This document shows positions 15,803 to 18,762 of a DNA stretch of 22,922 nt, in pieces; position 1 is the first letter of the stretch, and each line of letters starts with the position of its first letter. The notes below the pieces were generated by a model, which saw only the letters and a list, made by a program, of their open reading frames with translations, made no database searches and was not told the origin of the DNA. The stretch lies in IMG/VR virus record IMGVR_UViG_3300044640_002126, positions 1 to 22,922 of that record, one strand, 5' to 3'. Source of the DNA: a virus. A program made the position numbers and the translations under genes.

Positions 15803-15827
15803 AAAGCCACTTTTTGTGGCTTTTTTT
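15803..15827 (+). terminator. Rho-independent terminator after clpC
   Basis: AAAGCCAC, loop TTTTT, GTGGCTTT followed by more T residues to 15827. It runs directly into the ATATTTATAA motif of the next gene. Confidence 0.92.
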
Positions 15828-15837
15828 ATATTTATAA
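15828..15837 (+). promoter_or_regulatory. Late-type motif (ATATTTATAA) directly before the GNAT-zincin gene
   Basis: This is the only plus-strand copy of the motif with the same orientation relative to its gene. It ends 2 nt before the ATG, so transcription from it would give a leaderless or nearly leaderless message. Confidence 0.5.
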
Positions 15838-15839
15838 GT

Positions 15840-16574
15840 ATGATTGAGGAATTATTGACAAACAAATACGGTGAATGTTTAAAAGGGTTGGATATTTATG
15901 AGAATACAACAAGCCTTATTCTTTCACGTATTATTATTAATGATGAGTGTAGAGGACAAGGTGTTGGCACCAAAATTATGGAAGAATTGGTCAACTATGC
16001 TGATAGTAACAGTCAAATAATTGCTTTGACACCATCTAGTGATTTTGGCGGTAATAAAAATCGTTTAATTCAATTTTACAAAAGATTTGGGTTTAAGCAT
16101 AACAAAGGTATCCATAAAAGTTTTGAATTTCGTGATTCAATGATTAGGTACCCAAAATTAAATGAAAATATGAAACCAGTAATAAAACAATTATTAAGAG
16201 AACGACTACTAACACAAGATGATATGGATGTTAGAGATGTTGCTGATTTTGTTAATTTCGCTAAAGATTATTTAGAGATTGATGACGATGTTAAAGTAGA
16301 ACTAGCTTTTGAAAAAACACCAGACATCAGAACAACAGCATATTATAATAATGGTGATAAAAGAATGAAAATTTATGTTAAAAACAGAGCGATTATTGAT
16401 ATATGTCGTTCAATAGCGCACGAACTAGTTCACCATAAACAAAACATTGATGGCAGACTAAAAGATGCCGAAGACCCAGGTGCCGATGGTAGTGAGTTTG
16501 AAAACGAAGCCAACGCAGTTGCTGGTGTGATAATAAGAAAATGGGGTAGATTACACCCAGAAATATACGATTAA
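15840..16574 (+). CDS. GNAT acetyltransferase fused to a zincin-like metallopeptidase domain (244 aa)
   Basis: The N-terminal ~100 residues are GNAT-like: LILSRIIINDECRGQGVGTK carries the acetyl-CoA-binding R/Q-x-x-G-x-G/A signature (38-43), then ALTPSSDFGGNKNRLIQFYK and GF near 84. The C-terminal part (about 127-244) has the zinc-binding HExxH as AHELVHHKQ (H194, E195, H198), and a downstream FENEANAVAG can supply the third ligand (E221 or E223). The two activities would be acetyl transfer and peptide cleavage or Zn binding; substrates are unknown. I chose ATG 15840; a GTG at 15816 lies inside the clpC terminator and is unlikely. The stop is separated from the next ATG by one base, so it is translationally linked to the DUF5661-like gene. 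Domain calls are good; that both act on one pathway is inference. Confidence 0.87.
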   Translation: MIEELLTNKYGECLKGLDIYENTTSLILSRIIINDECRGQGVGTKIMEELVNYADSNSQIIALTPSSDFGGNKNRLIQFYKRFGFKHNKGIHKSFEFRDSMIRYPKLNENMKPVIKQLLRERLLTQDDMDVRDVADFVNFAKDYLEIDDDVKVELAFEKTPDIRTTAYYNNGDKRMKIYVKNRAIIDICRSIAHELVHHKQNIDGRLKDAEDPGADGSEFENEANAVAGVIIRKWGRLHPEIYD

Positions 16575-17671: not shown

Positions 17672-18097
17672 TTATTTTCCAGAAACGTCCCCAATGTATT
17701 CATAGCTGAAACACAATCTTTTATTATCATAGACATGGTTCTTATACGTATTTTCATCAGTTACGTCTTTTCTTATTTTTTTATTTTTACTAGTTGGTTT
17801 CCATAACGGAGAATTTTCCCAGAAAAAACCTAATCTAGGGTGCGCTGTTCTAGAAAAATATCTATATCCTTGGTCTATATGATGTTGTGCAATTGCTGTT
17901 GAAAACCTCACACCAATCCCCATACCTTGAAAATCTGGTAGAACAACATTCCTATGACCTCTCCATGCATTTTTAAGTGTTCCACTAGGTAATGTAATCG
18001 AGGCGAAGAAAGAAACAACTTGGTCATCCCAAATTCCCACATAACACCTAGCCGCTTTATTAACGTTCCCATCTAGATAGTGATGGTCTTTAAACAT
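17672..18097 (-). CDS. GNAT acetyltransferase part of a frame-interrupted ABC-ATPase/GNAT protein (141 aa as an isolated ORF)
   Basis: The segment NVVLPDFQGMGIGVRFSTAI is a clear GNAT motif A (Q-G-x-G-I-G). It is preceded by ARCYVGIWDDQVVSFFASIT and followed by GYRYFSRTAHPRLGF. The isolated ORF starts at ATG 18095-18097, overlapping the ATPase gene by 25 nt. However, the same frame continues upstream as FFVRPEINIKIYRTTNDSWR, which reads as the natural N-terminus of this GNAT domain, back to the T9 run at 18152-18160. A -1 shift there would give one 363-aa ATPase-GNAT protein. Such ATPase-GNAT pairs recall proteins seen in other phages and mobile regions, with unknown substrate. Expressed from the motif at 18775-18784. 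Confidence 0.82.
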   Translation of the reverse strand: MFKDHHYLDGNVNKAARCYVGIWDDQVVSFFASITLPSGTLKNAWRGHRNVVLPDFQGMGIGVRFSTAIAQHHIDQGYRYFSRTAHPRLGFFWENSPLWKPTSKNKKIRKDVTDENTYKNHVYDNKRLCFSYEYIGDVSGK

Positions 18098-18762
18098 TCT
18101 CCAACTATCATTTGTTGTGCGATATATTTTGATATTGATTTCTGGTCGGACAAAAAAAAACCGTCCAGAAGCTCTCCCGTATCAGTGTTGATTACCCAAT
18201 CTGGCTCCAACCAATCAACGATGTCCATGTGACAAGTGGATATAACAATACTCTTTAGGTTATTATTTTTTACATACCTAGCCAAAGCCATAGAGGCTGC
18301 TTTAGCGACAGTTCTATCAACCACTGAGGTATATTCATCAATAACTGCATTTGATTTGATTTTACGAGCTAAATCAGCTCTAAACTTTTCACCGTTGGAT
18401 AATACATGATAAGGTTTATACCACGAAGGTATTGAATTGAACCCAACAGAACTTAATCTATTGATTCCGTCTTCTGGGTTATCAAAATGTGAAATTACTG
18501 ATTTGTTTGGATTCCATTCTGGTTGTTCTTCAACACCAAATTGTTTTAACAGTGTTGATTTACCAGAACCACTCGAACCAACAATTACACCTATCTTAAA
18601 ATCTTTCGGTAAATTATTTGGTAATTTCCACGGGTGGAATGTTGATGTTCCGTTAAAACGACAATCAAATGCTATCTCACTAGCTTCAATAAATTCATCT
18701 CGGTCAACGGTTGATGTTAAAGGGGTTTCTTCTCTTTGTAGTTTTTCTATAACTGAATTCAT
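18073..18762 (-). CDS. ABC-type ATPase domain protein (229 aa), upstream part of a frame-interrupted ATPase/GNAT gene
   Basis: Soluble ABC-class nucleotide-binding domain with Walker A GSSGSGKST (residues 62-70), signature-like LSNGEKFRADLAR (121-133), Walker B NAVIDEY (138-144) and an H-loop His178 in ISTCHMDI. There are no membrane helices and no transporter partner nearby, so it is probably not a transporter. ABC ATPases of this kind act as switches on nucleic acid or protein. After TGELLDGFF the frame runs about 25 residues that look non-native (LSDQKSISKYIAQQM) and stops, whereas the -1 frame continues into a GNAT domain. A late-type motif lies 12 nt before the ATG. Function of the combined protein is unknown; ATPase assignment is firm. 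Confidence 0.85.
   Translation of the reverse strand: MNSVIEKLQREETPLTSTVDRDEFIEASEIAFDCRFNGTSTFHPWKLPNNLPKDFKIGVIVGSSGSGKSTLLKQFGVEEQPEWNPNKSVISHFDNPEDGINRLSSVGFNSIPSWYKPYHVLSNGEKFRADLARKIKSNAVIDEYTSVVDRTVAKAASMALARYVKNNNLKSIVISTCHMDIVDWLEPDWVINTDTGELLDGFFLSDQKSISKYIAQQMIVGECLKTITI
18152..18160 (-). other. T9 homopolymer (sense) at a frame break inside the ATPase/GNAT gene
   Basis: Sense strand: GGT TTT TTT TTG TCC in the ATPase frame, versus TTT TTT TTT GTC CGA in the GNAT frame. A -1 slip or one additional T joins the domains. Short complementary arms flank the run (TTCTGG before, CCAGAA after). Confidence 0.7.

Follow-up and report, generated by a model that had tools for sequence, protein, structure and literature searches.

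Two frames on the minus strand of the window, which is the whole stretch of 22,922 nucleotides analysed here, most likely represent one gene that is recoded into a single ABC ATPase-GNAT acyltransferase fusion; we put the probability of this reading at about 0.78. The record, 22,922 bases long, is from a T4-like myovirus and encodes a T4-type portal and terminase, a thymidylate synthase and a ClpB/ClpA-like ATPase. Re-reading of the window sequence confirmed the coordinates, the run of nine T's (T9), the -1 reading and the 363-aa product proposed in the initial annotation. The features are as follows.

18073..18762, minus strand: 0-frame ORF, an ABC-type ATPase of 229 aa, identified from the ORF, a profile and motif columns
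18152..18160, minus strand: T9 slip run, of which bases 1-7 (18160-18154) form the in-phase heptamer T_TTT_TTT
17672..18160, minus strand: -1 frame of 162 aa, an FFF linker and a GNAT domain with the acetyl-CoA loop QGMGIG; stop at 17672-17674
18073..18153, minus strand: dual-coded overlap; 0-frame tail of 26 aa whose stop lies under the conserved GNAT motif HHYL
18095..18097, minus strand: ATG of the GNAT frame, Met 22 counted from FFF; a start here would give a GNAT without its first strand
18138..18147, minus strand: 5' arm of a downstream stem, decayed in the window (6 of 10 pairs)
18099..18108, minus strand: 3' arm of the same decayed stem

The two frames and their relatives

In the 0-frame ORF, the ATPase occupies residues 1-203, and the last 26 residues are the overlap with the GNAT frame. 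The ATPase carries the motifs Walker A (GSSGSGKST), signature (LSNGEK), Walker B (AVIDEY) and H-loop (CH), and family alignments indicated that these columns are near-invariant; its PF00005 match in the profile search was just over the cut-off. The T run begins past codon 200, and the coding strand at the slip site reads GAC GGT TTT TTT TTG TCC. The frame one base back from T9 reads FFFVRPEINIKIYR and stays open until the stop at 17672-17674. Read in this way, the GNAT frame begins FFFVRPEINIKIYRTTNDSW and continues through a complete GNAT domain, which results in a predicted 363-aa protein with the ATPase-GNAT junction stretch GFFFVRPEINIK. A single PHROG, phrog_11143 (357 positions), covered both frames: its positions 35-194 matched the ATPase (E 3e-62), and its positions 200-352 matched the GNAT frame (E 2e-38), indicating that the two-frame arrangement goes beyond chance.

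We collected loci by tblastn on named phages, by three single-protein scans of IMG/VR and by alignment-based scans of IMG/VR and GTDB, and obtained 328 loci in total. Clustering at 85% ATPase identity gave 197 clusters: 117 were in-frame single ORFs, 76 had a -1 break, and 3-5 had a +1 relation, the +1 cases inspected including runs that are off by one base (L194, L279). The initial annotation had claimed one protein across the break, and the collection supported it: single-ORF homologues form the majority, almost all breaks are -1, and the GNAT-frame residues from the slip site to ATG 18097 are conserved. The search for single-ORF homologues, with its 117 clusters, also indicated that the two domains are not always separate genes with starts near 18097. 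The comparison at the sequence level identified the predicted fusion as the functional form.

The -1 relation was kept at the identical codon in 52 relatives of the window. The heptamer T_TTT_TTT was kept in 49 of these 52 (one of them with T8), and the remaining three had A_AAT_TTT instead. In the 48 relatives that aligned without gaps, the slip codons were GGT TTT TTT (45/48) or GGA AAT TTT (3/48); among 99 conserved ATPase codons that are degenerate, none was fixed to a single codon in the same alignment. Two members of the window clade, L052 and L054, have T10, which places both domains in a single ORF; the ATPase part of L054 shares 72% identity with that of the window. These alignments demonstrated that the -1 break and its slip site are conserved. 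Because the break is kept across 52 relatives and recurs elsewhere, it is not a sequencing error and is most likely a programmed feature.

Slip-site types and the reading of the T9 run

An in-phase X_XXY_YYZ heptamer was present in the linker of 69 of the 76 -1 clusters, versus 13.3 expected from their own ATPase body, and the density of linker heptamers was 0.070 in the -1 clusters versus 0.013 in in-frame fusions. The short sites were A_AAT_TTT, A7, T7 and T8, plus a non-canonical GGTTTTTC in Gram-positive phages. A stable downstream structure (z below -2) followed 15 of 18 short sites versus 6 of 53 A/T runs of nine or more (Fisher p 3.5e-8, an optimistic value since the clusters are related). 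Runs of seven or eight were all in the phase needed for ribosomal slippage (7/7), and runs of nine or more occurred in all three phases. These results demonstrated two types of site: a short heptamer with a stem, which is predicted to act by ribosomal -1 frameshifting, and a stemless A/T run of at least nine, which is predicted to act by RNA-polymerase slippage or as a very slippery ribosomal site. By these features, the window site is classified as the second type, a long run, with a decayed stem.

A perfect 10-bp stem located 6 nt past the heptamer is common to five members of the window clade (L058, L059, L103, L021 and L045), three with A_AAT_TTT, one with T8 and one with T9. Their stems contained seven double-changed cells, a number reached in none of 500 shuffles, and pairing was 20-40% when the position was slid; as the five members were selected for pairing, the exact count is biased toward the stem, and the key observation is that differing sequences pair at one place. 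In the other T9 members, including the window, the stem is reduced to a remnant, with a clade mean of 6.4 of 10 pairs versus 1.5-4.5 when slid. In the window itself, no stable downstream structure was found (z -0.2 to -0.5 versus shuffles); a stimulatory structure commonly accompanies programmed -1 ribosomal frameshifting but is not a strict requirement. The stem may have become dispensable when the run reached nine. A stem test anchored at the GNAT start gave no difference between -1 and in-frame clusters; that anchor removes the 5' arm in many stems, and it was replaced by an anchor at the slip site. The alignment of the Gram-positive stem consisted of five near-identical rows, too uniform for covariation to be informative.

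We propose that a one-base slip at the nine T's would give the full-length ATPase-GNAT protein by two routes, which may act together. In route 1, RNA-polymerase slippage would add a tenth U to some mRNAs. Bacterial polymerase is known to slip efficiently at nine A or T (PMC5009743; PMC1088944); this slippage may be suppressed in some AT-rich bacteria (PMC1088944). In route 2, ribosomes would step back one base on U_UUU_UUU. The T9 run of the window would then be read via polymerase slippage, ribosomal slippage or both. The ribosomal -1 shift named in the initial annotation stands as one of two possible mechanisms, and polymerase slippage appears at least as likely at this particular T9.

The slip could also be purely ribosomal, that is, classical programmed -1 frameshifting on U_UUU_UUU with the mRNA unchanged. 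This account is plausible, at somewhat less than even odds: T9 contains the in-phase heptamer, U_UU.U_UU.U is among the shift-prone heptamers for E. coli ribosomes (PMC4066793), and A_AAT_TTT and T8 occur at the same position in the clade with a covarying stem, consistent with ribosomal slippage. However, the stem that is typical of ribosomal sites has decayed in most T9 members, and nine T's is an efficient slip length for bacterial RNA polymerase (PMC5009743).

Whichever route applies, recoding into one protein was weighed against the production of two separate proteins, the ATPase and a GNAT started at ATG 18097 by coupled re-initiation. The final part of the ATPase ORF covers this ATG, whose Met is kept in 44 of 48 relatives. 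The GNAT-frame residues ahead of it (RPEI..IYR....W), however, are conserved and align with the in-frame fusions, and single-ORF fusions are the majority class. Codon-position entropy in the overlap (48 aligned relatives) follows the GNAT frame, with the second position lowest at 0.42; third-position entropy in this frame was 0.68 versus 1.21 in the remaining GNAT, and the quiet third positions include codons 4-20, upstream of ATG 18097. In addition, just 14 of the 38 other -1 clusters have any -1-frame ATG upstream of HYL. We consider two separate proteins very improbable; ATG 18097 appears not to be required for GNAT expression and may at most serve as a minor start.

Sequencing error, misassembly or gene decay is hardly credible: homopolymer runs are the usual sites of indel errors, and L052 and L054 (T10) and L194 and L279 (one base off) may look like such cases, but the -1 break is kept by 52 relatives, non-homopolymer A_AAT_TTT sites included, which refutes error at the clade level, the motifs are intact in both domains, and -1 exceeds +1 by 76 to 3-5.

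Products and predicted function

The recoded gene would make two products that share the ATPase, one with the acyltransferase and one without, in a presumed ratio; the unslipped remainder would terminate 26 codons on as an ATPase-only protein. Since ABC ATPases function as dimers, a mixed dimer with few acyltransferase units is likely. A stop under HHYL could likewise be used in 92 of the 104 in-frame fusions, suggesting that the short product may be a by-product; we rejected this stop as proof of selection for the short product, as it is not strong evidence when it is mostly present in in-frame fusions too.

The structure prediction of the fused form that had been proposed was run on the in-frame relative L054, which gave a single confident AlphaFold model (pLDDT 93.5, pTM 0.88). 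The GNAT domain of the window was modelled with a pLDDT of 83 and matched GNAT folds at Z ~13. PDB matches covered the ABC and GNAT domains separately, and the best full-length viral structure match was from Leptospira phage LE4 (TM 0.80).

Outside the window clade, a ParB-like gene immediately precedes the ATPase gene in 33 of the 38 -1 clusters and in 79 of the 116 in-frame clusters; the two genes frequently overlap, by up to 18 nt, and ParB_N was confirmed. In the window clade, no ParB-like neighbour was found in 40 clusters, and PF02195 was absent from 11 of 12 long records. Family members in siphophages are close to terminase genes. For a GNAT coupled with an ABC ATPase, e.g. in phage pT24, the activity predicted in the literature is an acyl modification, itself uncharacterised, on a DNA base (PMC7824862). 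Tenacibaculum phage pT24 belongs to the family of the window (39% identity), and the "undescribed machine" of the initial annotation does not hold: the ABC-GNAT fusion itself is already known as a predicted DNA-base acylator. Given this prediction and the ParB-like neighbour outside the window clade, we rate DNA acylation as the likeliest function of the fusion, at close to even odds. The ATPase would load or open DNA, the GNAT would acylate a base, and the acylated base would shield phage DNA from host nucleases.

The main rival on function, which we consider unlikely, is a protein substrate in place of DNA; candidate targets would be host RNA polymerase, a ribosomal protein or a defence component. 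The nearest solved GNAT folds are protein or small-molecule enzymes (RimI, Naa50 and GCN5), but the shared GNAT fold reveals no substrate. RNA polymerase is modified by some phage GNATs, e.g. Rac of phiKMV-like phages (PMC7824862); the family considered here, however, usually lies beside a ParB-like gene and, in siphophages, near terminase genes, and others have predicted DNA modification for it (PMC7824862). A host defence component had been suggested as the target. This suggestion found no support in our analysis, in which known defence systems gave weak P-loop-type matches alone, to PADLOC models such as mad3 and mad8, and DNA modification appears likelier than attack on host defence. Membership of the Mom family gained no support from sequence: hhalign against one Mu Mom sequence gave a probability of 0.7% (E 0.08), and no Mom structure was present among the listed fold matches.

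Several known systems resemble this gene. The ABC-GNAT proteins of phrog_11143, such as that of pT24 (PMC7824862), have the same two domains in the same order and aligned nearly full length; in the window, by contrast, the domains are in two frames joined by slippage, and the window clade is without the ParB-like neighbour. The dnaX gene also gives two ATPase-sharing products, via a ribosomal -1 frameshift in E. coli and via polymerase slippage on nine A's in Thermus thermophilus, with the same outcome by either mechanism (PMC5009743; PMC1088944). In dnaX, slippage yields the shorter product, whereas in ABC-GNAT it yields the longer one, and for ABC-GNAT both kinds of site are found inside one phage clade. 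The orfA and orfB of IS elements are two ORFs joined by a slippery heptamer, often with a downstream structure, or by a 9-nt run (PMC5009743; PMC4066793); their product is a transposase, whereas the window protein is an ATPase with an acyltransferase. Mom of phage Mu is likewise a phage enzyme of the GNAT superfamily, and it modifies DNA (PMC7824862). Mom, however, is without an ATPase domain, and sequence similarity to the window GNAT was not found. The RNA cytidine acetyltransferases TmcA and NAT10 couple an ATPase to a GNAT that acylates a nucleic-acid base; chains of the NAT10 type gave a weak profile match (E 0.02), but their ATPase is helicase-type, not ABC-type, and their substrate is RNA. 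COG2401 also describes an ABC ATPase fused to an acetyltransferase.

Spread and implications

The -1 class was found in phages of Streptococcus, Lactococcus, Oenococcus, Enterococcus and Thomasclavelia, in bacterial assemblies of Clostridia, Alistipes, Gilliamella, Cloacimonadota, Spirosoma and Dojkabacteria, and in about 20 Bathyarchaeota loci; these host labels are provisional because metagenome-assembled genomes may contain misplaced contigs. On the ATPase tree (FastTree, with many weak branches), the frame label changed at least 13 times, with four changes forced by well-supported branches, suggesting that the -1 break was repeatedly gained or lost.

What appears new, as far as the literature searched shows, is the repeated recoding of a predicted DNA modifier by two interchangeable means; the searches, most subscription papers being outside their reach, found no report of an ABC-GNAT frameshift. 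A wider proposal, to which we give a little under an even chance, is that all predicted ATP-driven DNA-base acyltransferases of this family, whether in phages or in archaeal genomes, would be under set-ratio recoding into ATPase-only and ATPase-acyltransferase subunits, with the mechanisms swapped freely. If this is true, ribosomal frameshifting aided by a stem, slippage of the polymerase on 9-nt runs and simple fusion would be the mechanisms swapped, and the family would be a natural experiment on replacement among recoding mechanisms. Because stemmed short sites and stemless 9-nt runs occur within one clade, the family may provide matched natural constructs for the two mechanisms. A further prediction of recoding is that the two subunits are made in a defined ratio; this would be a handle on how an ABC ATPase drives a GNAT on DNA. 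Few archaeal -1 frameshift genes are known (PMC8211752), and the Bathyarchaeota occurrences (A7 and A9 sites) would extend the list. In current annotations, the gene appears as two entries, an 'ABC transporter' and either a truncated 'GNAT' or a 'hypothetical protein' (P335, Javan141, MismyG, TR-TP2); a predicted DNA-modification enzyme is thus concealed in many phage records.

Several further observations were made on individual loci. Bathyarchaeota assemblies carry several -1 ABC-GNAT copies each, with A7 or A9 slip sites (L181-L188, L192-L199, L203, L205, L206, L209 and L215). The deposited sequence of the gene of Tenacibaculum phage pT24 has an in-frame TGA within the GNAT domain (L147:5571-5573) and its annotation consists of two 'ABC transporter ATP-binding' genes; the TGA is a real break or an error. 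In-frame fusions including L253, L255, L257, L261 and L272 have the junction CAA AAA AAA AAT AGA and retain the A run despite needing no shift; in other fusions, the junction has AGG GGG. L133:5001-6022 contains a tandem pair of GNAT copies, the second in a different frame. In the window, a second GNAT domain is encoded a few genes away on the other strand (15816-16574, plus strand), followed by a region with weak metallo-protease-like matches.

A 359-aa intein was found in frame within the Walker A P-loop of the ABC ATPase in L059:3738-5414, and also in L060; it starts with CLGLGTK, ends with VTHN and contains LLAGLLDTDGSY. The P-loop is a frequent intein position in ATP-binding proteins. Finally, L012:6065-7251 and L018:6047-7245 have an intact gene followed by an insert and then by an orphan duplicate of the GNAT gene's 3' part, an arrangement also present in L032, L036, L044, L048, L050 and L056. 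The insert of L012 and L018 contains an ORF of about 300 aa on the opposite strand; this ORF has repeated Cys-rich units and resembles a homing endonuclease.
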